Below the pieces are notes generated by a model, which saw only the letters and a program-made list of their open reading frames with translations, was not told the origin of the DNA and did not search any database. A stretch of 34,704 nucleotides of DNA from positions 1 through 34,704 of the forward strand of contig JAGOKF010000038.1 in the NCBI GenBank assembly GCA_017994695.1, written 5' to 3'. Made by a program: the position numbers and the translations under genes. Below, one piece after another: positions 3-26,984 of the stretch. The DNA is from Myxococcota bacterium (GTDB taxonomy: Bacteria; Myxococcota_A; UBA9042; DTJE01). Every line of letters begins with the position of its first letter. Positions within the stretch are counted from its first letter, which is position 1.

Positions 3-1490
3 GTCCCCATCGACCAGGCGGACCCCGCCGACGTCCGGTCGCGGCAGGTGATTGTCGCCGGCGGCCCCGACGTGGTGAAGCGGGCGACCGGAGGCCCCTG
101 GAAGGTGCCCGCCCCCCTCGGGGAACTGGCCCAGGAGCCGGGAGGCGTGCTGATGGAGTTCGCCTCTCCGCTGAATCCGTACCGGCGGCTGCTGGTGGCG
201 ACCGGTCGGGACGACGCGGCCCTGCGGCTGCTGGCGTCCCACCTGCGGACCCCCGCCAGCCTGGCCGCCCTGAAGGGACCCGCCGCGGTCTTCGACAAGG
301 CGCCCTACTTCGAGATCCCCCCGGTCGAACAGGAGGAGGCGGCGTTCCTGGTCCGCCTGAAGGACCTGAAGATGTCGGACCTGCTGGCCCGGGGCAAGTT
401 CTACCACTCGATTTCCTTCACGCTGCCCAATCCCTTCGTCGGCAAGGTGAAGGACGGGGCGTTCCTCCGCCTGAGCATGAGCCACAGCGAGGTCCTGCTT
501 CCTCAGTCCTCGTCGCTGCTGCTGCGGGTCAACGGGGAGCCCGTCCGGAGCCTCCGCCTGAGCCGGGAGACGGCCGCCCGGAACACCTGGGACATCAAGA
601 TCCCCATCGAGTACCTGAACACCCGCTTCCTGACCTTCGAACTGGAGCTCTTCCTGGACATCGGGGACCCCGACTGCTACTACAACCACCCCGAAATGGC
701 GTGGTTCTCGCTCCACAACGACACCCTGCTGTACCTCCCGGTGGACAGCGCCAGCGGCGAGACCCTGGCCAACTACCCCTACATGCTGCTCCGGTGGAAC
801 CGCTTCAACCGGCTGGCGGTGGTGCTGGCCGGGACGCCGACGCCGGGGATCCTGACCGCGGCCTTCAACGTGGTGGCCTACCTGAGCCAGAGCCTCCGGT
901 CGCCGAACTTCGTGGACCTGTTCTTCGGACCGTTCCAGGCCCTCTCGCCGGAACAGCGGGCCCAGTGGAACCTGATCCTGGTCGGGCCGATGGGCCAGTT
1001 GCAGGGGCAGCCGGAGTTGGCGTCCCTGCTTCCGCCCGAGATGGTGAACCGGGAGCCCCAGGGCCGGGAGGACCTCTGGAAGACCGCGGGGTTCCTGTCG
1101 CTGGTTCGACGTCCCGAGGGCCAGCGCGTGCTGGCGGTCACCGGATCGGGCGACCGGGAACTGCTGCGGGCGTCGGCCCACCTCTACCAGACGGGCAAGG
1201 TGGAGTGGGTCCGGGGAACCCTGGCGGCCGTGCTGGACCCCGATGAACTGAAGGTGCTCCTCCCTCCGCCGGAACAGGACGCCGTCCAGCGCTTCGATCC
1301 GGCCAAGGTCCGCTTCGAGGACCGGGAGGGGAGGCTCGTGCCCGTCCTGGAGGTGCCCCAGCCGGCCTCCGTGGCTCCCCGGTACAACATGGCCTACCTG
1401 GTCTTTTTCGTGCTGACCCCGGTCCTCATCCTGCTGATCGTCCTGCGCCTTCGGGCCCTGTCCAAGGAAGGCAAGGAAGACAAGGTCTGA
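3..1490 (+). CDS. BcsB-like cellulose-synthase periplasmic subunit (5' truncated by window edge)
   Basis: The frame is open to the left window edge, so this is the C-terminal part of a larger protein; the internal GTG at 48 is probably not the start. The visible part alternates flavodoxin-like segments (VIVAGG near the start; LAVVLAG around residue 260) with a jelly-roll, carbohydrate-binding-like segment that has the BcsB-type stretch DPDCYYNHPEMAW. It ends in one transmembrane helix (YLVFFVLTPVLILLIVLRL) and a short basic cytoplasmic tail. This is BcsB architecture: in cellulose synthesis BcsB is the inner-membrane-anchored periplasmic partner of BcsA and guides the nascent glucan. Here it lies 30 bp upstream of a PelA-like gene and pelDEFG, so I infer it guides or scaffolds a Pel-like polymer. 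Whether a BcsA lies upstream cannot be seen. The family call is confident; the role is inferred. Confidence 0.8.
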   Translation, partial: VPIDQADPADVRSRQVIVAGGPDVVKRATGGPWKVPAPLGELAQEPGGVLMEFASPLNPYRRLLVATGRDDAALRLLASHLRTPASLAALKGPAAVFDKAPYFEIPPVEQEEAAFLVRLKDLKMSDLLARGKFYHSISFTLPNPFVGKVKDGAFLRLSMSHSEVLLPQSSSLLLRVNGEPVRSLRLSRETAARNTWDIKIPIEYLNTRFLTFELELFLDIGDPDCYYNHPEMAWFSLHNDTLLYLPVDSASGETLANYPYMLLRWNRFNRLAVVLAGTPTPGILTAAFNVVAYLSQSLRSPNFVDLFFGPFQALSPEQRAQWNLILVGPMGQLQGQPELASLLPPEMVNREPQGREDLWKTAGFLSLVRRPEGQRVLAVTGSGDRELLRASAHLYQTGKVEWVRGTLAAVLDPDELKVLLPPPEQDAVQRFDPAKVRFEDREGRLVPVLEVPQPASVAPRYNMAYLVFFVLTPVLILLIVLRLRALSKEGKEDKV

Positions 1491-1520
1491 CCCGGGTCAG
1501 GACCGACGGGAGGAGGGGTC

Positions 1521-4067
1521 GTGACCCGCCGTCCCAGCCACCCTCGTTCCCTGACGCGCGTGCTGCGGGTGCGGGTTCGCCGCCTGCTGTCGTGGCTGGC
1601 CCCCCTGGTCCTGGCGACCGGCCCGGCGGCGGGCGCCCCCCTGCGGGAGGCCCGGACGGGAGCGATGGTCCCGGGGGACCGCGTCCTGCTGATCTACGAC
1701 TCCCGGGAGGGGGTCCGGGAGGATTCCAATCCCCTGTCGGGACCGGTCGCGACGACCCTCCAGCGGATGGGACTGGCCGTGCGCTGGTGGGACTGGGCCC
1801 AGGGTGCCCCCGGGGACCTGTCGGGGGTCCGGGGCGTCCTGACGGGATTCCGGGACGGGCGGATGGCCGACGCCCGGGCCCACATCGCCTTCGCCGCCGG
1901 TCTGCCCGACCGGGGAATCCGGTACGTCATCCTGGGGTCCTTCGGGGCCTTCCAGGAGGATCGGGACGGGAGTTTCCTGCCCGCCGAGGAAGTGAACCGG
2001 GTCTTCCGCCTGCTGGGCGTCCGCTACGACGCCTGGTGGACCGACGATCCGTCCCGCTTCGTGCCCCGGGTGGAGGACCGGCGCCTCGGATCCCCAGACG
2101 CCTTGCGGGCCGAGGACATCCGCCACTTCTTCCAGATCACCCCGATCCGCCCGGAAGTCCACCTCTGGGTGTCGGCCCGACGGACCGATCCGGGGCAGCC
2201 TCTCTCGGCGCCGGTCTTCACCAGCGCGACGGGGGGACTGGCCCTGGCACGGTACCTGTTCGCCGAGGACGCTCCCCCGACCCTCCGGCCCGGCCTGGAC
2301 CTGCGGCCCTTCCTGGAAGAGGCCCTGGCCCTGCAGCCCTTGGAGGCGGACACCCCGCTGGTGATCCACGACCGCGGGTCCGACGACTCCCGGCGGGTCC
2401 TGAAGAGCCTGTCCCAGGCGGCGTCCTACCTGGGCATTTCCCTGGCCACGGTGGACGTCCGGCAGGGGGCCTCCCTGCGGCCCTACGATCTCCGGGGCTT
2501 CCGGTCCGTGGTGCTGGCCCTTCCGGAGGTTCCCTCGCCGCTGGACGGCTACCTGAAGGGGATCCTGGCCCAGTACCTGTCCGAGGGGGGCCGCGTGGTG
2601 GCCCCCCTTCCGCTCCGGAATCCCCGGCTCGCCCCGGTGATCGGCGGTGGCCCCGATGCCCCGCCCGTGACCCTGCGAGTCCGACAGGTGCGCTTCGGTC
2701 CGTCGGCGTTCCCGGGACTGGACGGATTCCAGACGACCTTGGCCGAGGAGAGCGCCTGGAACGTCCTGGCACCGGCCTTGAGAAAGTCCTGCTCGGCCTG
2801 GATTACCGGACGGGCGGCACCGGACAAGGGGAGCGAGGTGCCCCTGGCATGGCGCTGCCGGGAGGGAACCGGGGAGGTCTCGGCCCTCGGGGTCTGGGAA
2901 TTCGCGGACCGGGCCTACCTGGGCATCCTGGCCCAGGCCCTGCTGGACGGACAGGGGCTGTTCGCGATGCCGGTACTGGCCGCACGGCTGGAGTTCGTGG
3001 ACGACTGTCCCCTGCCGATGACCGGCCGGGAACTGCCCTCGTTGGGCCGGTCCGACATCCGGTTCTACCTGGACGACTTCCTGGAAACCCTCCTGGAACT
3101 CACCCGGCGCCACGACCTCCGTCCCACGGCCCTTGCGGTCTTCACCTACGACGATCGCACCGAGAGCCCCTACGGGGAACCTTGGCCCGGTTCGACCCGG
3201 GAGGCGTCCCTGGAAATGGCCCGCCGATGGATCGAAGAGGGGCTCCCCATCGGGATCCACGGCATCACCCACGTCTCGCCGGCGCTGTCGGGGGGCGTGA
3301 ACCGCCCCTTCCCGGGGGAGGCGGCCCTCCGGGAAGCGTTCCGGGCCACCCGGCAGGCCTTCCTGGACCTCTTCGGTCCCGAGAACCGCCCCGCGGTGTA
3401 CGTCCCGCCGAACGACTACATCGACCGGGCGGGCAAGCGGGCCCTGGTCCAGGCGATTCCCGAGGTGCAGGTCCTGGCATCGGTCTTCGCCGGTTCGGAC
3501 GTGGAGACGTCCCAGGACTTCGGCATCGACCCGGAGGAGCCCTCGCTGGCCGCCATTCCCCGCACCTGGGCGGGCATGCGCCTGGAGGGCGAGGCGGCGA
3601 TGGGACTGGTCAACGGGCTGCTGCTGCAGGCCGTCTCCTCCCACTTCCTGCATCCCGACGACGCCCTGGACCCGGAACGATCGGGGGGACTGCCCTGGAA
3701 GGCCCTGAGGACCGCATGGGAGAGCGCCTGCCGGGAACTGACGAACCGCTTCGGCTACCTGCGCCCTGTCACCGTCCTGGAGGCGGCCGGGATGGTCCGC
3801 CTCCAGGCCGCGACCGGCCTGCGACTCGATCACCCCGGACCCGGGATGCTCCGGGTTCGGCGCGCGTCGGGTCATCCGGGCACGCTGCCCCTGCTGGTCC
3901 GGTTGCCGCCGGGTTGCCGCCCCCGCTGGACCGGCGGGCGCCCCCTGGCTTCCCACCCCGCCTCGGGACGGCACCTGGTGGAAATGGAGGCGGCCGCGCT
4001 GACCGCGACCTGTGATCCCCCCGGCCTGGCGGGGGGCCCCGGGACCCTCTCGGAGAAAGGAAGATGA
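1521..4067 (+). CDS. Secreted PelA/DUF2194-like polysaccharide deacetylase
   Basis: This 848-residue exported protein starts at GTG 1521 behind a GGGAGGAGGGG ribosome-binding site. An Arg-rich N-terminus leads into a signal peptide (LLSWLAPLVLATGPAAGA). Two Rossmann/flavodoxin-like segments follow, starting near residue 54 (RVLLIYD) and residue 280 (PLVIHD). The C-terminal half resembles a NodB-type deacetylase: an Asp pair D494-D495 (FVDDCP), the metal-binding HGITH motif (H580, H584) and a VYVPPNDY strand near residue 630. Classical PelA also joins a Rossmann-like region to a deacetylase but carries an N-terminal glycoside hydrolase; none is visible here. I recall DUF2194 proteins accompanying pelDEFG in other phyla. 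Likely role: periplasmic de-N-acetylation of the exported polymer. The stop overlaps pelD by ATGA. The deacetylase call is firm, the PelA equivalence less so. Confidence 0.75.
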   Translation: MTRRPSHPRSLTRVLRVRVRRLLSWLAPLVLATGPAAGAPLREARTGAMVPGDRVLLIYDSREGVREDSNPLSGPVATTLQRMGLAVRWWDWAQGAPGDLSGVRGVLTGFRDGRMADARAHIAFAAGLPDRGIRYVILGSFGAFQEDRDGSFLPAEEVNRVFRLLGVRYDAWWTDDPSRFVPRVEDRRLGSPDALRAEDIRHFFQITPIRPEVHLWVSARRTDPGQPLSAPVFTSATGGLALARYLFAEDAPPTLRPGLDLRPFLEEALALQPLEADTPLVIHDRGSDDSRRVLKSLSQAASYLGISLATVDVRQGASLRPYDLRGFRSVVLALPEVPSPLDGYLKGILAQYLSEGGRVVAPLPLRNPRLAPVIGGGPDAPPVTLRVRQVRFGPSAFPGLDGFQTTLAEESAWNVLAPALRKSCSAWITGRAAPDKGSEVPLAWRCREGTGEVSALGVWEFADRAYLGILAQALLDGQGLFAMPVLAARLEFVDDCPLPMTGRELPSLGRSDIRFYLDDFLETLLELTRRHDLRPTALAVFTYDDRTESPYGEPWPGSTREASLEMARRWIEEGLPIGIHGITHVSPALSGGVNRPFPGEAALREAFRATRQAFLDLFGPENRPAVYVPPNDYIDRAGKRALVQAIPEVQVLASVFAGSDVETSQDFGIDPEEPSLAAIPRTWAGMRLEGEAAMGLVNGLLLQAVSSHFLHPDDALDPERSGGLPWKALRTAWESACRELTNRFGYLRPVTVLEAAGMVRLQAATGLRLDHPGPGMLRVRRASGHPGTLPLLVRLPPGCRPRWTGGRPLASHPASGRHLVEMEAAALTATCDPPGLAGGPGTLSEKGR

Positions 4068-5503
4068 CGGCGGACACCTGGACCCGTTCCCGATACTCCC
4101 GGCAGATCCACAGCCTCACCGAGGCCCTGGTGGGACTGCTGCTGCTGATCGTGCTGAACTACTTCGCCTTTCCCGACGACCCGGGCTACCTGTCGGTGAA
4201 CCCCCATCCCTTCCTGTTCCTGGTGATCCTGGTGGCGTCCCGGTACGGCACCTTCGACGGCTTCGTCACGGGAATCCTCACCGCGGCGGTCTACCTGGGA
4301 TACGTCTTCTGGGGCCGGGACCTGGAAGCCGTGCGCCAGACGTCGGACTTCGCCCTGTTCCTGCCTGCCTACCTCTTCGTGATCCTGGGACTGCTGCTCG
4401 GGGAGATCCGGGAGGCGGCCAACCGGGACGTCATCACGCTGGGTCAGGAGGTCCGGCGCCTCCGGGCCGAACTGGAGGAGGCCCGCCAGCAGTCCCAGGT
4501 CCTTTCGAAGGTCAAGGAGGAACTGCAGCAGCGGGTGCTGGCCTCGGACGACCCCCTGGCCCGGATCTCCGACACCGCCATCCGCCTGGCGACGTCGTCC
4601 CCGGACGACGCCTACCCGGCCATCCTGGACCTGGTGGAACGGTTCGTGATGCCCGAGAAGTACGCCCTCTACCTGGCCGTGGAGACTCCCGGAGGAGTGC
4701 TGGGACAGCCGGCCCCCGAGGCCTTCGAACTGCGCCTGTCCCGGGGATGGGCCCGTCCCGACGAGTTCCCCCACCGGCTGGACGGGACCCACCCGGCGGT
4801 CCAGGCAGCCGTGACGCGCCGCCAGGTGGCCAGCATGACCGCGATGGTCGCCGACGCCGCGACGGACATCGTGGCCTGCGCCCCCGTCGTGGACCCCCAC
4901 CGGGACCAGGTCGTCGCGCTGCTGGTGATCGAGCGGATCCCCTTCCTTCGCCTGAACCAGATGACTCTGAACCACCTCCATACCATCGCGGGATGGGCCG
5001 GCAAGACGATGGGGGATGCCCGGCAACTGGGGGATGCCCAGGAGGCCCGGGTGGACGATCCGGTGTCGGGGACCTTCCACTTCCGGTTTCTGGCCAAGCG
5101 GCTGGCCGAGGAGGCCCAGAGGGTGCGCCGGTACGGCGGGAACTGCGCCTACCTGGTGGTCCACTGCCCCCAGTTCCAGGAACTGAGCGCCGGGGACCAG
5201 CGGATCTTCCTGCGGGAAACGGGCAACCTCCTGAAACGCCTGCTGCGGACGATGGACGTGATCGGCATCCACCGGGCACCGGGATCCTTCGGCTTGATCC
5301 TGCCTTCCACGACGGCACACCAGGCCCTGGTGGTGACCGCCCGGATCAACGAGGCCTTCCGGAAGACCTTCGGCGGGTACGGTTCCCGGTTCGACCGCCT
5401 GTCGATCCGGATGGGGCTGGCCACGACGACCGCCTCGGAGCCGCTGTCGGAGGCCCGGTTGATGGAGTACGCGGAGCGGCTGGACCTGAGGGACGCCCAT
5501 TGA
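4064..5503 (+). CDS. pelD: PelD-like membrane c-di-GMP receptor
   Basis: The protein has 479 residues. The N-terminus holds about four transmembrane helices (residues ~18-115), then a coiled-coil-like helix (~125-160, RLRAELEEARQQ), a GAF-like domain (~165-320) and a degenerate GGDEF-like domain (~330-470). The active-site GGDEF motif is replaced by APGSF, so diguanylate cyclase activity is not expected. The inhibitory-site motif RxxD is kept as R395-T-M-D398. In Pseudomonas aeruginosa, PelD binds c-di-GMP through this site and thereby activates Pel synthesis, so the same post-translational control is likely here. The start overlaps the upstream deacetylase stop (ATGA), which suggests translational coupling; pelE follows after 28 bp. 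The domain order and neighbours make the assignment strong. Confidence 0.9.
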   Translation: MTADTWTRSRYSRQIHSLTEALVGLLLLIVLNYFAFPDDPGYLSVNPHPFLFLVILVASRYGTFDGFVTGILTAAVYLGYVFWGRDLEAVRQTSDFALFLPAYLFVILGLLLGEIREAANRDVITLGQEVRRLRAELEEARQQSQVLSKVKEELQQRVLASDDPLARISDTAIRLATSSPDDAYPAILDLVERFVMPEKYALYLAVETPGGVLGQPAPEAFELRLSRGWARPDEFPHRLDGTHPAVQAAVTRRQVASMTAMVADAATDIVACAPVVDPHRDQVVALLVIERIPFLRLNQMTLNHLHTIAGWAGKTMGDARQLGDAQEARVDDPVSGTFHFRFLAKRLAEEAQRVRRYGGNCAYLVVHCPQFQELSAGDQRIFLRETGNLLKRLLRTMDVIGIHRAPGSFGLILPSTTAHQALVVTARINEAFRKTFGGYGSRFDRLSIRMGLATTTASEPLSEARLMEYAERLDLRDAH

Positions 5504-5531
5504 GGAGGGCACCCGGCGAACGGGAGGGGAG

Positions 5532-6566
5532 ATGGAACGGGCCGCAACGATTCCCGGCCTGATGCTGGCCGCGCTGGAGTCGGTCCTGGAGGCCGAGGCC
5601 CTCGTCCTGCTGCTGCACGATTTCGGCCTGTCCCCCTTCTGGCGGGTGCTGCTCCCCCTGGGGGCCCACCTGCTGGCCCTGGCGCTGCTGGCCGTCGGCC
5701 TGGTGCGCCCCTGGAACTTCCGCGACCCGTCCGATCGGGCCTGGGCCGTCCTCGGGCTGAGCCTGACGCTGCCGTTGCCGCTGTTCGGGTTCCTGGGCTT
5801 CCTGGCGATCTACGCGTCCATGCAGGGACGGAAGGCGGCGGGAGGCGACCTGCTGCGGGATTTCCAGCAGTACATCTCCTACGACCCGGTCTCCCTGCCC
5901 GAGCGGGGCGCCCTGGAGCCCGACCTGTTCCTGAAGACGGAAGTGGACATCGCACCGCTGCGGGAGATCCTGGCCGGCGAGGACGTCCCCTTGAAGCGGG
6001 GTGCCATCCTGTCCCTCTCCCGCCTGCCCCGGGCCGAGGCGGTCGGGCTGCTGAAGCAGGCCCTCACCGACGAGTCGCGGGAGATCCGCTACTACGCCAG
6101 CAACGCCCTGTCGGAGATGGAAAAGGAGTTCAACGACCGGATCTTCCGCCTCACTCGGGAGGTCGAGCGGAACCCGACCCAGGAGGAAAGGCACGTGGAA
6201 CTGGCCAGGACGGTGCTGGAATACACCTCCTCGGGCCTCCTGGACCAGGCCATCATCCCCTACTTCCACGAAATCGCCCAGCGGACCCTCGACCGGGCCG
6301 CGATGAACCCGAGGCACTCGCCGGTGGTGGACACGCTCCTCGGCGAGGTCTACCGCCGCATGGGACGACAGGACAAGGCCCGGGAGGTGCTGGAGGACCT
6401 GGCGAACCGCGAGGGCCGGGACCCGAAGGTCTTCGTGTCCCTGGCGGAGATCGCCTTCGACCTGGGACGCCTGGGCGAGGCCCGGCGTTGGGTCCAGGAG
6501 GGAATCCGGAACTTCCCCGAGGATCCGCGCCTGATCCAACTGCAGGAGGTGCTGGGCAACCCATGA
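5532..6566 (+). CDS. pelE: PelE-like membrane-anchored repeat protein
   Basis: The 344-residue protein begins at ATG 5532 just after a GGGAGGGGAG ribosome-binding site. Two hydrophobic helices (roughly residues 30-56 and 70-96) anchor it in the inner membrane. The rest is helical: first a HEAT-like pair of helices (LKRGAILSLSRLPRAEAVGLL; IRYYASNALSEM), then TPR-like repeats near the C-terminus (LLGEVYRRMGRQDKAREVLEDL; LAEIAFDLGRLGEARRWVQEG). PelE of P. aeruginosa likewise combines two membrane helices with TPRs and forms a membrane complex with PelD, PelF and PelG. The stop overlaps the pelF start by ATGA. Sequence identity within PelE is typically low, so the call rests on architecture and position. 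Confidence 0.82.
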   Translation: MERAATIPGLMLAALESVLEAEALVLLLHDFGLSPFWRVLLPLGAHLLALALLAVGLVRPWNFRDPSDRAWAVLGLSLTLPLPLFGFLGFLAIYASMQGRKAAGGDLLRDFQQYISYDPVSLPERGALEPDLFLKTEVDIAPLREILAGEDVPLKRGAILSLSRLPRAEAVGLLKQALTDESREIRYYASNALSEMEKEFNDRIFRLTREVERNPTQEERHVELARTVLEYTSSGLLDQAIIPYFHEIAQRTLDRAAMNPRHSPVVDTLLGEVYRRMGRQDKAREVLEDLANREGRDPKVFVSLAEIAFDLGRLGEARRWVQEGIRNFPEDPRLIQLQEVLGNP

Positions 6567-8047
6567 AGGCGGACGTCTGCATGATCCTGGAGGGGTCGTA
6601 TCCCTATGTGGTCGGAGGGGTCTCGACCTGGATCCACGACCTCGTGAGCAGCCTCTCGGACGTCTCCTTCCACCTGGTCCACATCGGCGTCGGGATCGAG
6701 AGCCCCCGGAAGATGCGCTACACGCTGCCACCGAACGTGCTGCAGTTCCAGCAGATCCCGCTGATGGAGTCGATCCCCTGGCGGGGCCCCCGGTTCCGCC
6801 GGAAACGGAAGTCCTGGGAGGCCGTCGCGCGGTTCCTGGAGGACCTGACCCGGGACGACACCTCGGGCTTCCGCGATCTCCTCCATGCCCTGGATCCCCG
6901 TTCCCCCGACGCCATCACCCCCTACGACGTCTTCCACGGGAAGCCCTTCTGGAACTTCCTGGTGGAGTGGTACCGGCAGCACTTCCCGGACTTCTCGTTC
7001 CTGGACTATTTCTGGACCTTGCGGTTCATGGCCCTGCCGCTGTTCCGGGTGCTCTACGCGGAAGTCCCCCCGGCGCGCCTCTACCACGCCACCTGCACCG
7101 GCTACGCGGGGCTCCTGGGCGCCATCGCCTCGATCCGGACCGGGGCTCCCCTGGTCCTCACGGAGCACGGCATCTACACCAACGAGCGCATGATCGAGAT
7201 CACCCAGGCCCAGTGGATCTACCGGGAACGGACCTCCTCCCTGGTGCCCACCCGCCAGGTGGGCGCGCTCCAGAACCTGTGGATGCGGAAGTTCGAGATC
7301 CTGTCACGCCTGTCCTATGACCAGGCGACCCGGATCTTCACCCTCTACGAAGGCAACCGCCAGATGCAGATCCAGGGAGGGGCTCCCCCGGACCGTTGCG
7401 AGATCATTCCTAACGGCATCGACCTGGAACGATACGACGCGATGCACCTGGCCCGGCAGGAGAAACTGCGGGGCGCGCCCCGGGTCTGCATGGTCGGCCG
7501 GGTGGCCCCCATCAAGGACGTCAAGACGTTCATCCGGGCCGCCCGGATGGTCCACGAGGAGATGCCGGAGGTCCGCTTCGAGGTCCTCGGGGGAGCCGAC
7601 GAGGACGAGTCCTACCTGGAGGAGTGCCAGCGCCTGGTGAAGGTCCTGTCGCTGAAACCGGTCTTCGACTTTCCCGGCGCCGTGGACATGAAGGAACACT
7701 ATCCCTCGATCTCGGTCCTGGTGCTGACCAGCATCTCCGAGGCCCAGCCATTCGTCCTGCTGGAGGCGATGCGGGTCGGGATCCCGGTGGTGGCCACCAG
7801 CGTCGGGGCATGCGCCGAACTCGTCCTCGGCTCGGGCAGCGACGACGAGGCATTGGGCCCCGCGGGGTTCATCACCAACGTCCGGTCTCCCCGGGAGACC
7901 GCCGACGCGATCCTGGCGCTGCTCCGGGACCCGGAGATGGCCCGTCGGATGGGCGAGACGGGGCGGGAACGCGTGGGCCGCTACTACGTCCGCAGACAGA
8001 TGCTGGAGGGATACCGCGGGGTGTATCGCGGTCTGTGCGGGGGGTGA
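6563..8047 (+). CDS. pelF: PelF-like GT4 glycosyltransferase
   Basis: Start chosen at ATG 6563, which gives MKADVCMILEGSYPYVVGGV, the characteristic PelF N-terminus; upstream in-frame codons lie inside pelE. The 494-residue protein is close to the usual PelF length. It shows the GT-B fold of family GT4: an N-terminal acceptor domain with LVLTEHGIYTNER, the inter-domain NGIDLERYD, then the nucleotide-sugar domain with GRVAPIKDVKTFIRA and the ExxxxxxxE signature (E393 to E401 in EAQPFVLLE). PelF is soluble and in P. aeruginosa uses a UDP-sugar, probably UDP-GalNAc, to polymerise Pel at the membrane complex; substrate here is inferred. It overlaps pelE by 4 bp, and pelG begins 3 bp after its stop. 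Confidence 0.95.
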   Translation: MKADVCMILEGSYPYVVGGVSTWIHDLVSSLSDVSFHLVHIGVGIESPRKMRYTLPPNVLQFQQIPLMESIPWRGPRFRRKRKSWEAVARFLEDLTRDDTSGFRDLLHALDPRSPDAITPYDVFHGKPFWNFLVEWYRQHFPDFSFLDYFWTLRFMALPLFRVLYAEVPPARLYHATCTGYAGLLGAIASIRTGAPLVLTEHGIYTNERMIEITQAQWIYRERTSSLVPTRQVGALQNLWMRKFEILSRLSYDQATRIFTLYEGNRQMQIQGGAPPDRCEIIPNGIDLERYDAMHLARQEKLRGAPRVCMVGRVAPIKDVKTFIRAARMVHEEMPEVRFEVLGGADEDESYLEECQRLVKVLSLKPVFDFPGAVDMKEHYPSISVLVLTSISEAQPFVLLEAMRVGIPVVATSVGACAELVLGSGSDDEALGPAGFITNVRSPRETADAILALLRDPEMARRMGETGRERVGRYYVRRQMLEGYRGVYRGLCGG

Positions 8048-8050
8048 TCG

Positions 8051-9421
8051 ATGGCGGGAATCGGCTTCCGGCTCCGGGAGATGGCCCAGAGGAGGACCTT
8101 CTCCGAATGGCTGAAGCTCTACACCTACGCCGCGCTGGTCTTCTCGGGGCCCTGGATCGTCAGCATCCTGGGACTGGCCGCCCTGTCGATCTTCGCAATG
8201 CCGGCCCTCCAGGACCGCGACATCCAGATCTTCACCGTGGTGGTGGTCTACGTCCACTGCTTCAGCCTGGTCACCACCGGCCTGCTCCAGCTGGTCGTCA
8301 CCCGTTTCGTGTCGGACCGCTTCTACCTGCGGAACCCCGAGGCCGTCGTCCCCGCCTTCGTGGGATCCTTCGCCACCACGGTGCTGTTCCAGACCCTGAC
8401 CGGGGCCGTCGCCCTCTACTTCCTGGAATTCTCCTTCCTGCAGAAGATCGTGACCCTGGGCCTCTACGTGACCATCTCGGCGGTCTGGATGGAGATGCTG
8501 TTCCTGTCCGCCGCGAAGGACTACGCGAACATCGTCGCCGCCTTCGCCATCGGCTACCTGACCTCCTTCCTGCTGGCCCAGGTCCTGTCGCGGTTCTTCG
8601 GCCTCGACGGCCTCTCGGTGGGCTTCCTGATGGGCCAGGTGCTGCTGATGATGCTGCTGATGCACCGGATCTTCGCCGAGTACCGATTCGAGATGTCCTT
8701 TGGTTTCGACTTCCTGGGGCACCTGCGACGCTACCCGGTGCTGGCGGCCATCGGCGTGACCTACAACCTGGGGATCTGGATCGACAAGATCGTCTTCTGG
8801 TACGGCCCCGACGGGGTCCAGATCCACTCGTGGCTCCACACCCATTTCCCCTACGACTCGGCGATGTTCATCGCCTACCTGACCCTGCTGCCGACCCTGG
8901 CGATCTTCCTGCTGCGCATCGAGACCGACTTCTACATCCGGTACAAGTCCTACTACGGGACGATCCTCCAGAAGGCCCCCCTGGGCCTCATCGAGCAGCG
9001 GAAGGACGAGATGGTCAAGGTCCTGCGGGAATCGGCCCGGACCGTGCTGATCTGGCAGGGCGCCGTGACGACGCTGATCTTCCTGGTGATGCCGTTCCTG
9101 GTCTCCCTGATGGGGATCGATCCGGAGCAGGTCCCGGTCTTCCGGGTGGCCACGATGGGGGCCTTCTTCCACGGCGGCCTGCTGGTCCTGCTGATCCTGA
9201 TCCTATACTTCGATTTCCGGGGATCGGCGCTGCTGGTGTCGCTGGTGTTCCTGGGGCTCAACGCCGGGCTGACCCTCCTGACGATCCGCCTGGGCCGGGA
9301 GTTCCAGGGGTTCGGCTACCTGGGGGCCACGATGATCTCGATGCTGCTGGCCCTGGGAGTCTTCCGCAACCGGATGCGCAACCTGGAATACCTGACCTTC
9401 ATGCGCCAGCCCGTCCGTTGA
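8051..9421 (+). CDS. pelG: PelG-like Wzx/MATE-family polysaccharide transporter
   Basis: This is a 456-residue polytopic inner-membrane protein with about twelve hydrophobic helices spread over its whole length. It opens with MAGIGFRLREMAQRRTFSEW, a PelG-like start, followed by YAALVFSGPWIVSILGLAAL. PelG belongs to the MOP (Wzx/MATE) superfamily and is thought to carry the growing Pel chain across the inner membrane with PelD, PelE and PelF. It starts 3 bp after pelF and is the last gene of the locus on this side. The next gene, hrpB, is convergent with only 10 bp between the stop codons, so no pel gene continues downstream. Confidence 0.93.
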   Translation: MAGIGFRLREMAQRRTFSEWLKLYTYAALVFSGPWIVSILGLAALSIFAMPALQDRDIQIFTVVVVYVHCFSLVTTGLLQLVVTRFVSDRFYLRNPEAVVPAFVGSFATTVLFQTLTGAVALYFLEFSFLQKIVTLGLYVTISAVWMEMLFLSAAKDYANIVAAFAIGYLTSFLLAQVLSRFFGLDGLSVGFLMGQVLLMMLLMHRIFAEYRFEMSFGFDFLGHLRRYPVLAAIGVTYNLGIWIDKIVFWYGPDGVQIHSWLHTHFPYDSAMFIAYLTLLPTLAIFLLRIETDFYIRYKSYYGTILQKAPLGLIEQRKDEMVKVLRESARTVLIWQGAVTTLIFLVMPFLVSLMGIDPEQVPVFRVATMGAFFHGGLLVLLILILYFDFRGSALLVSLVFLGLNAGLTLLTIRLGREFQGFGYLGATMISMLLALGVFRNRMRNLEYLTFMRQPVR

Positions 9422-9434
9422 GGGGTTCGCCTCA
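9419..9434. terminator. Small hairpin spanning both stop codons of pelG and hrpB
   Basis: TGAGG (9419-9423) and CCTCA (9430-9434) pair around the loop GGTTCG. The stem contains the pelG stop codon on one strand and the hrpB stop codon on the other. There is no T tract, so it is at best a weak bidirectional terminator or mRNA-end structure. A five-base-pair stem could arise by chance. Confidence 0.3.
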
Positions 9435-11975
9435 TCGGGTCCGGCCCGGTCCCGGAGGGGACGCCCGGAGGGGGTCTTCGGGCCAGGCATGGCGGGGATA
9501 GCGGCGGCGCATCTCCCGGGCCACGACCGGGTAGTGGTCGCGCCAGAACGAGGCCAGGTCCGTGGTCACCTGGACCTCCTGGCCCCCGGGTCCCAGCAGG
9601 TGGAGCCGCAGGGGACCTCCTCCCTCGGGAAGCGTCGGCCCCTGGGACATGCCGAAGAAATCCTGGATCCGGGAAGCGACCGAGGGGGCATCCCCCCGGA
9701 CCCAGCGAATCCTCAGGCGACGGCCCCCGGGGAGCACGACGTGTTCCGGGGCCAGGCGTCGCAGGGCTTCCCGCTGCCGGTCGGTCCAGATCCCGGACCA
9801 TGCGATGCCCCGTTCCCGGACCTCGTCGAGGGAACGGCACCCCCGACAGGCCTCCCGGATCACGGCCTCCATCCATTCACGGTCCAGGACGGGCCATTCC
9901 AGGTCCGGTCGCCGTGCCGCCAAGAAGTCCACCCGGGCCAGGATCCCCTCCAGGTCCTCCCCGGGCCCCACCAGGGACGCAAGACCCCGTTCCATCGCCT
10001 TCCGGGCCAGCAGGTCCTCCGCCTCGGGGGAAGGGTCCCGGTGGGGCCGCTCCTCCAGCAACAGCCTCCCGTGCCAGAGACAGCGGACCGTCTCCACCCG
10101 TTCCCCTTCCGGGACCCAGCGGACCTCCCGGGTCTCCCGGAGGTCGTCCAGCAGCACGTCGATCCAGTCGTCCTCCTGGACCCGGCGGGCCGCGCCGATC
10201 CGGATCCACCCGGACCCTTCGACCACGAGGGCGTCCGGTACCACATAGAACCCCTCCCGGAAGGATCCGTCGTCGGGGGCCCGGGAGGAACCGCCCAGGG
10301 GCCAGACCAGTTCCCACTCCCGGGGCGAGGAGGCTGGTCTCCGCGCCCGGGCCAGCCGGTCGGGAAAGGCCGCCAGCAGGGCCCGGCTCCCGGGGGTCTC
10401 CCGGTCCGCCGGAGCCGACCCGGAGGCTCGCCCCAGACCCGCCCGGGAGGCCAGGTCGGCCAGGTCCCGGCGCAGCACCGACAGGCGGTCCGTCGGGGCT
10501 CCTCCTCCTGCATTCGCCCGATGTTCCGGCCATCGGGCCAGGGCTTCCTCCACCGGGTCCGGGCAGGGCCCACGGGCGCCCGGACGTTTCGTCCGTCCCG
10601 GTTCGAACCCGTCCCGAAGGGCTCCCTCGGCCAGCAGCACGGCCATCCCGCACCCCAGACCCAGGTCCCCCCGGCGGCCCGCCTCGGCCACCAGCACCCC
10701 CAGGCGCGGATGGAGAGGCAACCGGACGACCTGCCGCCCCCGCTCCGTCAGGTCCCCGGACGGATCCAGCAGGCGCAGGCGTCGAAGGAGTTCCTCCGCG
10801 GCATCCCACGCGGCCCGCGGTGGCGGGGTCAGCCAGGGGAGGTCCCCCGGCCCCCGGACCTCGAGGGCCCTCAGCAGCAGCACCGCCTCGGACAGGTCAG
10901 CCCGGACCACTTCCGGCGGGTCCTCCTCGGGCCGGGTCTGGAAGTCCCTCTCGGTGTACAGGCGCCAGCAGGTTCCGGGGCCCGTCCGTCCCGCCCGCCC
11001 CGTTCTCTGGACCAGGGAGTGGCGACACGCAGGGCCCGATTCCAGGCCCGGAAGCCCGGACCACGGATTCCAGGTGGCCCGCCGAACGAGTCCCGAGTCG
11101 ATCACCCCCGAAACCCCCGGGACCGTCAGGGACGATTCGGCGACGTTGGTGGCGAAGATCGCCTTCCTCCGGTCCGCCGGAGCCAGGGCCCGATCCTGGG
11201 CCGCAAGGGACATCTCCCCGTGCAGGGCCTCCAGGCGCAACCCCAGACGTTCCGAGAGGGGTCCCGCGACCTCCATCGCCTCCCGGATTTCCCGGGCCCC
11301 GGGCAGGAAGACCAGGAGGTCGCCCCCGGGGACCTGGGCCGCCCGCCCGACGGCCTCGGCGACCCGGACCGGGAGAGGCCGGGGATCCTCCCGGGAGAGG
11401 TGGCGGACCTCCACCGGGAATGGGCGCCCTCCCGCCTCCACGGTCCTTGCGTCCAGGGCCTCCCGGAGGGCCTCCAGCCGCAGCGTCGCGGACATCACCA
11501 GCAGCCGCAGGTCCTTCCGGGGTCCCTGCTGCAACCGGCGGATCCAGGCCAGGCAGAGGTCTCCCGCGAGGCTGCGCTCGTGGAACTCGTCCAGCACCAC
11601 CACTCCCGTCCCCGCCAGCAGCGGATCCTCGACGATCCTGCGGACCAGCATGCCCTCGGTCAGGTACCACAGGCGGGTCCGGTCCCCCCCGACCCGTTCC
11701 AGCCGGACGTGCCACCCCACGGTGTCCCCGGCCTCCTCCCCGATCCCCTGCGCCGCCCTCCGGGCCGCCCACCGGGCCGCCAGGCGCCGGGGCTCGGTCA
11801 CCCAGACCTGCCGGTCCCCCCAGAGGCCCAGCAGCGCCGGGGGAACGAGGGTCGTCTTGCCGGACCCGGGAGGGGCCGCCAGCACGCAGCAGGGATGATC
11901 CCGCAGGTGTTCCCAGACCTCCCCCAGGACCTCCTCCACCGGCAGCCGTTCCCTGGAACCGGGGCCGTTTCCCAC
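9432..11975 (-). CDS. hrpB: ATP-dependent DExH-box helicase HrpB
   Basis: The 847-residue protein matches the length and motif set of HrpB: Walker A GSGKTT (37-42), DEFH (129-132, the DExH variant usual in HrpB), SAT (162-164) and QRTGRAGR (323-330). A helicase-associated winged-helix region and the long HrpB-specific C-terminal domain follow. HrpB is a cytoplasmic, probably RNA-dependent NTPase whose cellular role is poorly defined. The GTG start at 11975 lies nine bases after AGGAG and precedes the Walker A motif by the expected distance. It is transcribed divergently from the TolC-family gene and converges on pelG, so it looks monocistronic. Confidence 0.93.
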   Translation of the reverse strand: MGNGPGSRERLPVEEVLGEVWEHLRDHPCCVLAAPPGSGKTTLVPPALLGLWGDRQVWVTEPRRLAARWAARRAAQGIGEEAGDTVGWHVRLERVGGDRTRLWYLTEGMLVRRIVEDPLLAGTGVVVLDEFHERSLAGDLCLAWIRRLQQGPRKDLRLLVMSATLRLEALREALDARTVEAGGRPFPVEVRHLSREDPRPLPVRVAEAVGRAAQVPGGDLLVFLPGAREIREAMEVAGPLSERLGLRLEALHGEMSLAAQDRALAPADRRKAIFATNVAESSLTVPGVSGVIDSGLVRRATWNPWSGLPGLESGPACRHSLVQRTGRAGRTGPGTCWRLYTERDFQTRPEEDPPEVVRADLSEAVLLLRALEVRGPGDLPWLTPPPRAAWDAAEELLRRLRLLDPSGDLTERGRQVVRLPLHPRLGVLVAEAGRRGDLGLGCGMAVLLAEGALRDGFEPGRTKRPGARGPCPDPVEEALARWPEHRANAGGGAPTDRLSVLRRDLADLASRAGLGRASGSAPADRETPGSRALLAAFPDRLARARRPASSPREWELVWPLGGSSRAPDDGSFREGFYVVPDALVVEGSGWIRIGAARRVQEDDWIDVLLDDLRETREVRWVPEGERVETVRCLWHGRLLLEERPHRDPSPEAEDLLARKAMERGLASLVGPGEDLEGILARVDFLAARRPDLEWPVLDREWMEAVIREACRGCRSLDEVRERGIAWSGIWTDRQREALRRLAPEHVVLPGGRRLRIRWVRGDAPSVASRIQDFFGMSQGPTLPEGGGPLRLHLLGPGGQEVQVTTDLASFWRDHYPVVAREMRRRYPRHAWPEDPLRASPPGPGRTR

Positions 11976-12017
11976 TTCCGCCGTCTCCTGCCCTGGAGGA
12001 TCCCCCCTCGCGGGACT

Positions 12018-12026
12018 ATGCTAGCA
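12018..12026 (-). promoter_or_regulatory. Possible extended -10 promoter for hrpB
   Basis: On the minus strand TGC-TAGCAT forms an extended -10 element about 40 bases upstream of the hrpB GTG. No convincing -35 box is seen 16-18 bases further upstream, so this is tentative. Confidence 0.3.
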
Positions 12027-12105
12027 GAAGCCCGCAGGCGGGCCGGACGTCCCCCGCGGGACCACCCCTGCCTTCGCGAAGGGGAACGGCCGTGGCGACC
12101 CGGGC

Positions 12106-12133
12106 TTGACAGGAAATCGCGGAACCATAAAAT
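12106..12133 (+). promoter_or_regulatory. Sigma70-type promoter of the TolC-family gene
   Basis: A perfect TTGACA (12106-12111) is followed after 16 bp by TAAAAT (12128-12133), five of six matches to TATAAT, in a locally AT-rich patch within very GC-rich DNA. Transcription should start near 12140, leaving a leader of about 60 bases with a GAGGAGGAG ribosome-binding site at 12189-12197. Confidence 0.8.
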
Positions 12134-12199
12134 GAACGCGGTTCGTTTTTTCTGGACGTCCCGGCCGTCGGCGGGAACGCCGGACATCGAGGAGGAGCA

Positions 12200-13579
12200 A
12201 TGAAACGCTTCCTGGGATCGCTGGTCATCGGGGTTCTCTGCGTGCTGCCGGGGATCGGGCTGGGCCAGGTCCGGGAGGTCACGCTCGAGGAGGCGGTCCG
12301 CAAGGGGCTGGAGCACAGTCCCGAGATCCGGATGGGACGCCAGGACGTCCTGAAGGCCGGGGATGACCGGCTGTCGGCGGGTCTGGCCATCGGCCCCCGG
12401 CTCTCCCTGGACGCGGGCATCCAGTGGTGGGACAAGGCCACCCGGGTGCAGTTCATCGACGCGGGGCAGTTGCAGTTGACCCCCGAGCAGATCGAGGCCA
12501 TCCGGACCTTCCTGGGGGACGGCTTCGTCGGCATGCTGTCGAGCCTGAACGAACCGATGGAGATCCAGAAGCGGGTGACGGGCACCGTGACCCTCCAGGC
12601 GGTCCAGCCCATCACGCCCCTCTGGTCCCTGGCGGAGATCTTCCGACTCCAGGGAGCCAACGCCGAGGCGGCGGAACTGGAGCAGCGGGCCCGGACGCTC
12701 CAGGTGACGTACCGGGTCACCGAGACCTTCTTCCGGCTCCGCCAGGCCCTCCGGATGGTCCAGGTGACGGACAAGGCGGTGGAGCAGGTCGAGGCGCACC
12801 TGAAGACGGCCCGTTCCTTCCAGGAGGCGGGGCTGGTGGGCCGGGACGACGTGCTCCGGGCCGAGACGATGCTGTTCCAGGTCCAGGACAAGCGCAGCCA
12901 GGCCCTGGCCGGGGTGGCGCTGGCCCGGACGGCCCTGGCGATCCAGATGGGGCTGTCCCCCTCGGAGATGCTGGTCCCGGTGGGGGACTTCCCCGATCCG
13001 CCGCCGGAACTGTCGTTGCAGGACCAGGAGGCCATCGAGAAGGCCCTCTCCCAGCGCCCGGAGATCGGGTCGGTGGAGGCCCGGAACCGCATGGCCCGGG
13101 CGGGTTGGAACGCCTCCGTGGGCGCCCTGATCCCCACCATCGCCGGGGTGTTCCGCTACCAGCACTTCGAGGGGAGCAAGTTCCAGCGCGCCGACTCCTG
13201 GTTCGTGGGGGCCCAGTTGACCTGGAATTTCTGGAACCTGGGGCAGGATTTCCTGCGCATGAAGGCCGCCGGGAGGGACGTGGAGAAGGCCCGGGAAGGG
13301 CTCCAGGGGATCCGGGACCAGGTCGTGCTGGACGTCCGGAAGGCCCTGCTGGACCTCCGCACGGCCCGGTCCTCCGTCGAGGCGAACCGGAAGGCCATCG
13401 AGTCCGCCCGGGAGAACCTCCGGGTCGTGACGAAGAAATACGAGGTGTCCACCGCCACCTCGGTGGAGGTGCTGGACGCCCAGAGCACCCTGACCCAGGC
13501 CGAGGCGAACCTGGAGGTCGCCCTGGGCAACTACTACATCGCCTTCGCGAATCTCCAGCGCGCCCTGGGGGGCAACTAG
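12200..13579 (+). CDS. TolC-family outer-membrane efflux protein
   Basis: The 459-residue protein starts with a clear signal peptide (MKRFLGSLVIGVLCVLPGIG, cut near GLGQ). Two tandem outer-membrane-efflux repeats follow, each with long helical stretches (for example VTDKAVEQVEAHLKTARSF and SARENLRVVTKKYEVSTATS) and beta-strand segments between them. The repeat end VEVLDAQSTLTQAEANLEVA is typical of the family. Such proteins trimerise into an outer-membrane barrel with a periplasmic tunnel and export drugs, proteins or polymers together with inner-membrane ABC or RND pumps. No pump or membrane-fusion protein is adjacent, so the substrate is unknown. A strong promoter and ribosome-binding site precede it. 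Confidence 0.88.
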   Translation: MKRFLGSLVIGVLCVLPGIGLGQVREVTLEEAVRKGLEHSPEIRMGRQDVLKAGDDRLSAGLAIGPRLSLDAGIQWWDKATRVQFIDAGQLQLTPEQIEAIRTFLGDGFVGMLSSLNEPMEIQKRVTGTVTLQAVQPITPLWSLAEIFRLQGANAEAAELEQRARTLQVTYRVTETFFRLRQALRMVQVTDKAVEQVEAHLKTARSFQEAGLVGRDDVLRAETMLFQVQDKRSQALAGVALARTALAIQMGLSPSEMLVPVGDFPDPPPELSLQDQEAIEKALSQRPEIGSVEARNRMARAGWNASVGALIPTIAGVFRYQHFEGSKFQRADSWFVGAQLTWNFWNLGQDFLRMKAAGRDVEKAREGLQGIRDQVVLDVRKALLDLRTARSSVEANRKAIESARENLRVVTKKYEVSTATSVEVLDAQSTLTQAEANLEVALGNYYIAFANLQRALGGN

Positions 13580-24482: not shown

Positions 24483-26981
24483 CTATCCGGCCCAGTACTG
24501 GAAGGCGTGGTGCCACGCGCCCCAGAAGCGCACGACCGACAGGATCACCCAGGCCCCCAGCACGGCGAAGGCCCAGGGAAGGATTCGGGGGACCTCCGCA
24601 TCTCCCGGCACGAGCCGAGGCATCTTCCGGGCGAAGGGCCGGGGAGGACGGCCCGCCAGGGAGGACCAGAGGACCTCGAGGGCCAACAGCGCCGCCAGGA
24701 TGGACAGGACGGCCAGGGATCCCGCGACTCCCATCCGGAAGGCCCGGGGCCGGTAGCGGAACTCCACCCGGTGATTCCCGGCAGCGACCGGAACGGCCCG
24801 GAAGAGACGATTGGCCTGGAGGATCGGGGCCGGGATGTCGTCCACCAGGGCCTCCCACCCGGGGTAGTAGGAATCCAGCAGCACGACCAGCCCGTCGGCG
24901 GCCATCCGGACATCGAGGAGGACCTCCTCGTCGCGGTACCGGGCGACCTTCACGGAAGAGGACTCCCCCGGCGGCGGTGCCCCCAGGGGAACCGGGGGAA
25001 GGAACGGCAACAGGGCCCGGCGCCGAAGGGTCCTCGGCTCCCGGGCCACCCACCGGGAAGCCGCCTCCGGGTCCGGGACCACCTCGACCTCGTGGACGGC
25101 GAATGCCCGGGGAAGGGCATCGGGATCCCGCCAGGCCCCGACCCCCTCGGTGCCCGGGAGGCGTCGGGCCCGGGCCGGGGCATCCCCGGGCCGGGGAGTC
25201 ACGACGTAGCGCCCGCCCAGGGGACCCAGGGTCCGCCCGGGGATGTCGGCCATGCGCTTGTACACCGACAGGAAGGCCTCCTGTCGCAGCGGCAGGATCC
25301 CGTCCACCGCCTGGAGGCCGTACAGCATCGGCAGGTTGTAGGCGAGCCCCGCCAGGGGGTCGGGGGGCAGGGAACGGCGGATCCAGCCCACCTGCAGGTA
25401 GGGCGCCGGCGGGGACCGGAAGACGACCCGTTCGAGCCGTTCCTCCCGAGAGCAGTCGGGATTCCCGGGACAGAGGTCCTCCCGGATGGCCCGGGCGGTC
25501 GAGGGCGGGTCCCAGTAGGAGGGGGGGGTGGACGGAACCTGGCGGAGCGCATGGTCCGCCAGGGGAAGCCCCGCGGCCAGGACCAGCAGTCCCCTCTTCC
25601 AGGCCGTCTGCGTCCCGCTTCCCAGGATCCCCGCCGCCGCCGCCAGCGAAAGAACCTGGATGGCCAGATCGCGGACCAGTTCCGCCCGGAGCACGGGGTT
25701 CGATGCGAGCCCCCGGCGATAGGTCGCCCCCAGCACGGCCGCCAGGGCCAGCAGGACCCCAAGCATCGACAGCACGACCACCCGCCGGGACGGGGGTCGC
25801 TCCAGCATCGCCTCGATACCGGCCGCGGCCAGGGCGGCCAGCAGCAGGGTCAGGGGCCCGTTCAGGCGATCAGGGAACCGGAAGGCCCGCAGGACGGGCA
25901 ACTGGAACAGTTCCGGCACTCCGAACATCAGGGGCCCGAGTGCCACCAGGAACACCACCGCGGCCGAGAGCGCCAGGGCGGCGACCAGTCGCCGCTGCCG
26001 GGAGGCCCAGGCCATCATGGCCGCCCAGACGGCCACCAGCCCGACGTGGAGGTCGATGCCCGCCCGCCACATCCCTCCGGGATGCAGCCAGTTGGTGGCC
26101 TCTCCGGGCGTTCCGAAGGCCGATGGCACCGCCAGCACCGCCAGGGCCTGGGGAGTCAGGTGCTGGCTCATCTGGCCCGCGACGGCCCCCGCATTCCGGA
26201 CGCTCCCCGATGCCAGTTCGAGGGTCGGGAGCACCTGCACGAGGCAGAGTCCTCCGGCGAGGGGCATGGCCAGCAGGACACCGAGCAGGGACCTGGGCTC
26301 CCCGAGGACCTCGCCGTCGCCGGTGCCCAGGGCACGGACCAGGGCGTAGAACCCGACGACCCCGAAGGAATTCACGGTGGTCTGGGGATGGCCGCAGAGG
26401 GCCAGCAGGGCCAGCAGCGTCGCCAGGATCGCCACGTCCCGGAAACGTCCCTCCCGGGACACCCGCTCGGCCGCCCAGAGGCACCAGGGAAGCCAGGCCA
26501 GTGCCTGGACGAGGTTCAGGTGCATGTGGTGCAGGGCCAGGTGACCCGAGAGACCGAAGACGATCCCCCCCGCCAGGGCCGGCAACGGCCCGAGGAAGCC
26601 CGACAGCCAGAACCAGGCGCCCAGGCTGCCGATGCCGAGGTGCAGGGCATAGGAGGCCCCCACCGCCCACCACGCGGGCAGAAACGGGAACAGCGCCCAG
26701 TTCAGCGGGTAGAGAGGCCCGGCCTGGCCCTCGGCGAAGAGGGGAAACCCGAGGTAGAGGTCGGGACACCAGAGCGGGAATTCCCCCCGGGCCCAGGCCC
26801 GCCCGAAGAAGTCCCGGATCGGGACGTGCAGTTCGGTGACGTCATTGAACCAGAGGGTGCGCCGGCCCAGCACCAGGGGCAAATGGACCGCGATGGGCAG
26901 CACCAGGGCCAGCATTCCGTAGGCCCCCCGGCGTCCCCGTCCCGGGTCGCGGAAGGCGTCGGATCCGGCAGGGCGGAACAT
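24483..26981 (-). CDS. YfhO-family polytopic membrane protein
   Basis: The 832-residue protein has a GT-C-like layout: a dozen or more hydrophobic helices in the first ~500 residues, a large extracytoplasmic C-terminal domain, then closing hydrophobic helices. The first loop has NDVTELHVPIRDFFGRAWAR, the acidic loop typical of GT-C enzymes. The C-terminal part has the YfhO signature SYYPGWEALVDD followed by an FRAVPVAAGNHRVEFRYRP stretch. Bacillus YfhO is implicated in glycosylating lipoteichoic acid, and GT-C proteins use lipid-linked sugars; the substrate here is unknown. It begins 3 bp after the glycosidase-like lipoprotein gene, so the two form an operon. Confidence 0.85.
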   Translation of the reverse strand: MFRPAGSDAFRDPGRGRRGAYGMLALVLPIAVHLPLVLGRRTLWFNDVTELHVPIRDFFGRAWARGEFPLWCPDLYLGFPLFAEGQAGPLYPLNWALFPFLPAWWAVGASYALHLGIGSLGAWFWLSGFLGPLPALAGGIVFGLSGHLALHHMHLNLVQALAWLPWCLWAAERVSREGRFRDVAILATLLALLALCGHPQTTVNSFGVVGFYALVRALGTGDGEVLGEPRSLLGVLLAMPLAGGLCLVQVLPTLELASGSVRNAGAVAGQMSQHLTPQALAVLAVPSAFGTPGEATNWLHPGGMWRAGIDLHVGLVAVWAAMMAWASRQRRLVAALALSAAVVFLVALGPLMFGVPELFQLPVLRAFRFPDRLNGPLTLLLAALAAAGIEAMLERPPSRRVVVLSMLGVLLALAAVLGATYRRGLASNPVLRAELVRDLAIQVLSLAAAAGILGSGTQTAWKRGLLVLAAGLPLADHALRQVPSTPPSYWDPPSTARAIREDLCPGNPDCSREERLERVVFRSPPAPYLQVGWIRRSLPPDPLAGLAYNLPMLYGLQAVDGILPLRQEAFLSVYKRMADIPGRTLGPLGGRYVVTPRPGDAPARARRLPGTEGVGAWRDPDALPRAFAVHEVEVVPDPEAASRWVAREPRTLRRRALLPFLPPVPLGAPPPGESSSVKVARYRDEEVLLDVRMAADGLVVLLDSYYPGWEALVDDIPAPILQANRLFRAVPVAAGNHRVEFRYRPRAFRMGVAGSLAVLSILAALLALEVLWSSLAGRPPRPFARKMPRLVPGDAEVPRILPWAFAVLGAWVILSVVRFWGAWHHAFQYWAG

Positions 26982-26984
26982 CGA

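Follow-up and report, generated by a model that had tools for sequence, protein, structure and literature searches.

The DNA analysed here, referred to as the window (34,704 nucleotides; contig JAGOKF010000038.1 of a Myxococcota bacterium), opens with a set of genes for a Pel-type exopolysaccharide, and the first of these genes codes for a cellulose-type BcsB subunit. The question raised by this locus is whether BcsB belongs to the Pel system and, if so, what it does among proteins that polymerize, export and deacetylate a chain made by a soluble glycosyltransferase. A reading of the sequence alone had proposed a hybrid of Pel and BcsB functions encoded in one tight operon. Profile searches and ORF coordinates bore this out: six genes in the order bcsB–pelADA(DUF2194)–pelD–pelE–pelF–pelG, all on the + strand, form one tight run at positions 3–9421 (Table 1), joined by 4-base overlaps or separated by intervals of 3–30 bases, with no interval in the operon of the window exceeding 30 bases.

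Table 1. Positions in the window, strand and supporting evidence for the six genes of the BcsB-Pel run.
Feature	Position	Strand	Evidence
bcsB, C-terminal 495 codons (second half of FD1, CBD2, FD2, C-terminal TM helix)	3..1490	+	PF03170, E 6.8e-23
pelADA (DUF2194), predicted periplasmic de-N-acetylase with signal peptide	1521..4067 (start may be 1560)	+	PF09960, E 1.4e-53
pelD, predicted c-di-GMP receptor with degenerate GGDEF	4064..5503	+	PF00990 weak, 21.6 bits; RxxD (RTMD) I-site kept
pelE, membrane/HEAT/TPR protein	5532..6566	+	TPR_19, E 2.1e-8; HEAT; position; similarity to other PelE
pelF, GT4 glycosyltransferase	about 6563..8047	+	DUF3492, E 8.6e-84; orthologue passes NCBIfam PelF equivalog
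pelG, inner-membrane Pel exporter	8051..9421	+	PF16933, E 2.5e-132, full length 1-452

Gene arrangement and flanking regions

The bcsB gene is truncated at position 3 because the first base of the window is also the start of its contig (G000:C76). The missing 5′ part, comprising the N-terminal 294 codons, was localized to a 5-kb contig (C113; L003, minus strand, ending at L003:1). The ends of the two contigs overlap by 200 bp at 96% identity, with the first 126 bp identical and the remainder diverging as at assembly breaks. This fragment was the sole further BcsB match in the genome of the window, for which all genome-wide statements rest on profile searches. On a 436-kb contig of a same-genus genome (L025) the run is unbroken, and the gene order is Ser/Thr kinase-PEGA, PEGA-TPR, OM362, OM398, bcsB, pelADA, pelD, pelE, pelF and pelG. 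The sequence-only reading had proposed extending the sequence to the left in search of bcsA, pelB or another export gene, and a complete bcsA-bcsB operon there would have refuted it; neither bcsA nor a second synthase was found 5′ of bcsB on C113 or in L025, and a profile search of the genome of the window returned no TIGR03030 match at E ≤ 0.001 that would indicate a BcsA.

The region 5′ of bcsB (L003 981–5020, minus strand; L025 1–5323) codes for the Ser/Thr kinase with PEGA, the PEGA-TPR protein, and OM362 and OM398, two uncharacterized proteins that are probably localized to the outer membrane. Genus g2 of the same family also has an OM398 gene 5′ of bcsB (L022, L023 and L039); no Pfam family match was obtained for this protein. 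In three relatives, a sigma-70-like site, TTTACC-17-TATAAT (10/12 matches), was observed approximately 110–140 bp 5′ of bcsB, which suggests that the transcript probably begins with bcsB and that the kinase, PEGA and OM genes probably constitute a separate transcription unit. Screening of the bcsB leader for a riboswitch yielded no Rfam match at the gathering score, apart from one chance-level match to a CRISPR repeat.

On the other side of the run, the + frame at 9489–12203 was rejected as spurious, the real gene at this position being that of an HrpB-type helicase on the minus strand. Beyond this opposite-strand gene, at 12200–13579 (+) and approximately 2.8 kb 3′ of pelG, lies a gene for a TolC/OEP-family outer-membrane protein that is kept in G036. 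Two large adjoining genes occupy 24483–29672 (−) after the Pel region, and the product of the second is Asp-rich, resembles a lipoprotein and weakly matches melibiase.

Architecture and inheritance of BcsB

The part of BcsB encoded in the window scored 81 bits against the PF03170 cut-off of 21, and a contiguous orthologue of 723 amino acids is available from the same genus (L025:5443–7614). The predicted structure, obtained from five sequences with moderate confidence (mean pLDDT 63), displayed a CBD-FD-CBD-FD-TM arrangement, that is, two repeats of a β-domain and an α/β-domain followed by a C-terminal helix at residues 691–721. A Foldseek comparison with E. coli BcsB (6yg8) covered the whole periplasmic part (E 4.1e-27), and VIA-align gave a Z of 17.9 over 482 residues with an rmsd of 13.0, which we read as uncertain placement of the domains relative to one another. 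According to the model, the full architecture of the BcsB family thus appears to be present. The Pel-type BcsB proteins share the motifs LC[DE]DVH and F[LM]DIG[DE]P[DE]C, and neither motif was seen when six other BcsB proteins were checked. As judged from the sequences, the stretch preceding the TM helix of the Pel-type proteins, where a cellulose BcsB would have its BcsA-facing interface segment, is Pro-rich or of low complexity, unlike that of the BcsA-linked homologues. The one Pel-type BcsB tested against the NCBIfam cellulose-BcsB model scored 85 bits, far below the cut-off of 750. Two further proteins of this family were noted. A second, partial Pel-type BcsB is encoded in G026 on a 3.4-kb contig (L053, G026:C16) and is 70% identical to the L025 protein, reflecting either a strain mixture or a paralogue as far as the sequence indicates, and a divergent BcsB-family protein is encoded in L054 at 7832–10138 (G180:C138), where no glycosyltransferase was recognized among the neighbours scanned.

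To what extent BcsB is linked to the pel genes was assessed in 52 genomes of the class (Myxococcota), 17 of them PelG-positive and 35 PelG-negative, and all genomes that combine BcsB with Pel are metagenome-assembled. Pel-type BcsB occurred in 11 of the 52, every one PelG-positive, and in 0/35 of the PelG-negative genomes (Fisher p 2e-7); within the family of the window, eight genomes contain both BcsB and PelG and five contain neither (p 8e-4). Since the genomes are related, both p-values overstate independence, and the trees provide the better argument. A lack of recurrent linkage in relatives, which the sequence-only reading had named as a refutation, was not observed: all 11 Pel-positive members of two families carry BcsB; the Pel-positive members of a third family are without it. 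In 8 of the 11 genomes bcsB and pelG share one contig, and in the remaining three, among them the genome of the window, bcsB is cut by, or close to, a contig end. Most of the loci L035–L043 duplicate contigs of G036, G026, G060, G192, G119, G195, G162 and G194 and were counted once.

In the BcsB tree, the Pel-linked proteins form one clade (100/100), apart from the BcsA/GT2-linked BcsB proteins of the phylum, and in a tree of concatenated PelF and PelG the same genomes also form one clade, with an inner order that matches the BcsB tree. BcsB genes from the phylum's other families mostly adjoin BcsA. Among the 19 records with PelG in a plasmid collection, none has a Pel-type BcsB; the collection contains two weak BcsB matches, and the one inspected is not linked to Pel. 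Because of the co-occurrence with PelG, the agreement of the trees and the promoter-like site ahead of bcsB, we conclude that BcsB is an inherited part of the Pel system in this group and not a stray neighbour. A bystander role for BcsB, as the leftover of an earlier cellulose operon beside the pel genes, would be in keeping with the frequency of BcsB genes in the phylum (27/189 genomes). This is nevertheless very improbable in view of the perfect co-occurrence with PelG, the congruent trees with their single clade, and the tight operon; besides, the part of BcsB encoded in the window is 95% identical to its same-genus homologue, as against 83% for PelADA, and no BcsA remnant was found.

Deacetylase, PelB homologue and the proposed path of the polymer

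The product of the second gene had been described from the sequence alone as a PelA/DUF2194-like deacetylase, and this assignment can now be sharpened to the PelADA type: a profile of 14 homologues matched PelADA of B. cereus (9ZAU) with an E of 4.1e-97. The catalytic residues named for PelADA are the base and metal Asp pair, HxxxH, the MT3 Pro, a base-coordinating Arg and a catalytic His with the Asp that follows it (PMC13254593). Their counterparts D481-D482, H567/H571, P617, R668 and H698-D701 are invariant in the alignment, so that the motifs DD, HxxxH, P, R and HPDD are kept in all 14 DUF2194 homologues; as far as sequence can tell, the protein is a PelADA-type deacetylase with a complete active site. 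The closest fold to its model (pLDDT 83) was that of Agd3 (6nwz; E 4.3e-14), a deacetylase of an α-1,4-GalNAc-containing polymer.

By inspection, PelADA of the BcsB-bearing group carries an additional domain at its N-terminus and begins with a signal-peptide-like stretch that has an AxA site, with no clear anchor, whereas the B. cereus enzyme is a single-pass membrane protein that has been modelled on PelG (PMC13254593). These features, and the position of bcsB directly 5′ of pelADA in the family of the window, would suit a role for BcsB mainly as membrane anchor and allosteric partner of a soluble PelADA, without itself conducting the chain to PelB. We consider this unlikely, since in a sister family bcsB adjoins pelB and pelADA is found at another locus; the tie of BcsB is therefore not specifically to pelADA.

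A DUF2194 search over the 189-genome sample of the phylum revealed a second copy in 6/6 Pel-positive genomes of the family of the window and in none of its four Pel-negative genomes. In the sister family the single copy lies apart from the pel operon. In the genome of the window this second locus (L044 5578–9488, G000:C149) codes for a second PelADA and for a TPR-barrel protein. The protein adjoining the second PelADA has TPR repeats followed by a predicted β-barrel and a terminal Phe in L044, G036, G026, G060 and G065, and it is homologous over both parts (E 6e-24) to a 692-amino acid TPR-barrel protein of the sister family, encoded between bcsB and pelD, directly 3′ of bcsB. In a search with its TPR part, PelB 9h80 was one of many TPR proteins hit (E 5.3e-20), and we read the protein as PelB on the strength of its architecture and context. 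A divergent LolA-like gene flanks the L044 locus, and in the sister family the pel locus, too, has a LolA-like gene at its side.

These observations bear on the earlier suggestion that BcsB replaces PelB in outer-membrane export. The operon of the window contains no PelB gene, which speaks for the idea. Since a TPR-barrel PelB homologue is present, with the second PelADA in the same genome and beside bcsB in the sister family, BcsB is not a stand-in for PelB; its predicted fold is moreover periplasmic, with one TM helix and no barrel, and we regard such a replacement as highly improbable. With regard to PelA, matches to the Azonexus protein were found near pelFG in most Myxococcota Pel loci without BcsB and in none of the BcsB-bearing pel loci. 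GH114 is encoded by a separate gene, in the sister family beside PelADA, as if PelA had been split. For PelC, whose export function the earlier suggestion had likewise named as one that BcsB may replace, a single query had no match anywhere, and the same query also missed the classical-type loci of the phylum. At L050 5451–11557 (G119:C6), genes for an MMPL-family transporter, PelADA and GH114 (endo-α-1,4-polygalactosaminidase family) lie in a row.

The GGDEF match of PelD fell just under the cut-off (21.6 against 23.8 bits), and an RxxD followed by a degenerate GGDEF position was observed in 8/8 PelD homologues aligned. As the RxxD site is kept, PelD, rather than a PilZ synthase, would be expected to mediate control by c-di-GMP. 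PelF and PelG adjoin in the window; the PelF region comprises DUF3492 plus GT4, the same-genus orthologue reached 477 bits where the NCBIfam PelF model requires 100, and PelG scored 442 bits against a cut-off of 29. Both proteins are only about 27–44% identical to their counterparts in classical loci, and the authors of a survey of Gram-positive Pel loci caution that operons which have diverged may produce different polymers (PMC7112194). The product may accordingly be something other than Pel itself. On this reading, the polymer would contain another amino sugar or linkage, with BcsB recruited for the shape of the product and the pel genes serving as a chassis only. We find this doubtful, because the catalytic residues of PelADA are all invariant, its best fold match is to Agd3 with the substrate given above, and the PelF orthologue passes the equivalog cut-off.

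The explanation that we favour, and hold to be somewhat probable, is a c-di-GMP-regulated, Pel-type exopolysaccharide machine in which BcsB has become an inherited subunit and would act as a membrane-anchored, carbohydrate-binding scaffold in the periplasm, taking the polymer over from PelG and delivering it to PelADA and PelB. Given what PelDEFG, PelADA and BcsB are known to do, it is the most economical model, and it retains, as the preferred reading, the earlier proposal that BcsB may guide the nascent chain to the deacetylase. PelF would polymerize, presumably from UDP-GalNAc, on a membrane complex of PelD, PelE and PelG, and PelG would export the chain. BcsB, anchored by its C-terminal TM helix, would dock beside this complex, and with its two CBD and two flavodoxin-like FD domains it would bind the emerging polymer and guide it in the periplasm. 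The chain would then be presented to PelADA for partial deacetylation and finally handed to the TPR-barrel PelB homologue encoded at the second locus. BcsB would thereby take on the scaffold and anchor role that falls to PelA in classical pelABCDEFG loci or, in Gram-positive ones, to the N-terminal TM helix of PelADA.

How Pel passes from PelG to the deacetylase and PelB in Gram-negative bacteria has been stated to be unclear (PMC13254593), and a lineage with BcsB fixed in this gap offers a direct handle on the hand-over. Since BcsB structures have been solved and the roles of the protein are known, docking, polymer binding and hand-over become testable. The locus suggests that a part which guides the growing chain can be exchanged among polymer-making systems that are otherwise unrelated. 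A wider proposal, which we put forward tentatively, is that BcsB may be a general periplasmic module for chain guidance, exchangeable between unrelated synthases (the GT2 BcsA type; GT4 PelF with the MOP-type PelG), and that it may here form a crown at the inner membrane above PelDEFG, like the one of E. coli cellulose secretion, linking PelG to PelADA and PelB. The locus also shows that BcsB can occur independently of BcsA and of cellulose, which matters for annotation, as BcsB-pel loci could be misread as cellulose operons.

Comparison with known systems

No description of BcsB in a Pel locus was found in the searchable literature, outside which lie most subscription papers and all preprints; two papers in it name BcsB, PelF and PelG together, with no mention of a linkage in the passages concerned. 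The locus shares with classical pelABCDEFG of Pseudomonas aeruginosa the order of the genes for PelD (with RxxD), PelE, PelF and PelG, and the genomes that combine BcsB with Pel likewise encode a TPR-barrel PelB homologue. It differs in the addition of BcsB, in the placement of PelB at a second locus in the family of the window, and in having no bifunctional PelA nearby, the deacetylase and GH114 being separate genes (side by side in the sister family). With Gram-positive pelDEADAFG of Bacillus cereus and the DUF2194 Pel loci of Fusobacteriota it has in common a PelADA homologue of the DUF2194 family that keeps the same catalytic residues and is encoded next to pelD, pelE, pelF and pelG. It differs in that it belongs to a lineage that bears an outer membrane and has a PelADA with a putative signal peptide, BcsB, PelB and a second copy of PelADA.

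The BcsA-BcsB-BcsC cellulose synthase shares the BcsB fold, with its two CBD-FD repeats and C-terminal TM helix, and a TPR-barrel exporter. No BcsA or other GT2/PilZ synthase is encoded near the genes described here, and the synthase consists instead of the soluble GT4 enzyme PelF with the exporter PelG.

BcsB-family proteins outside cellulose synthesis occur in the stalk (sfz/xag) clusters of iron oxidizers and in ydaJKLMN of B. subtilis, where they are paired with a GT2 and not with PelF/PelG. B. subtilis, used as a control, matched PF03170, and we take YdaN to be the BcsB-family member and YdaM its GT2. The ydaJKLMN system has a c-di-GMP receptor with a degenerate GGDEF and makes an exopolysaccharide with Gal/GalNAc residues (PMC13274460). 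The statement of the sequence-only reading that BcsB normally receives glucan from BcsA holds with a qualifier, given that BcsB-like proteins are known beside other GT2 enzymes, as in the stalk/xag clusters (PMC4643136, PMC8250860). What is new at the present locus is the partner of BcsB, a soluble GT4 together with a MOP-type exporter.
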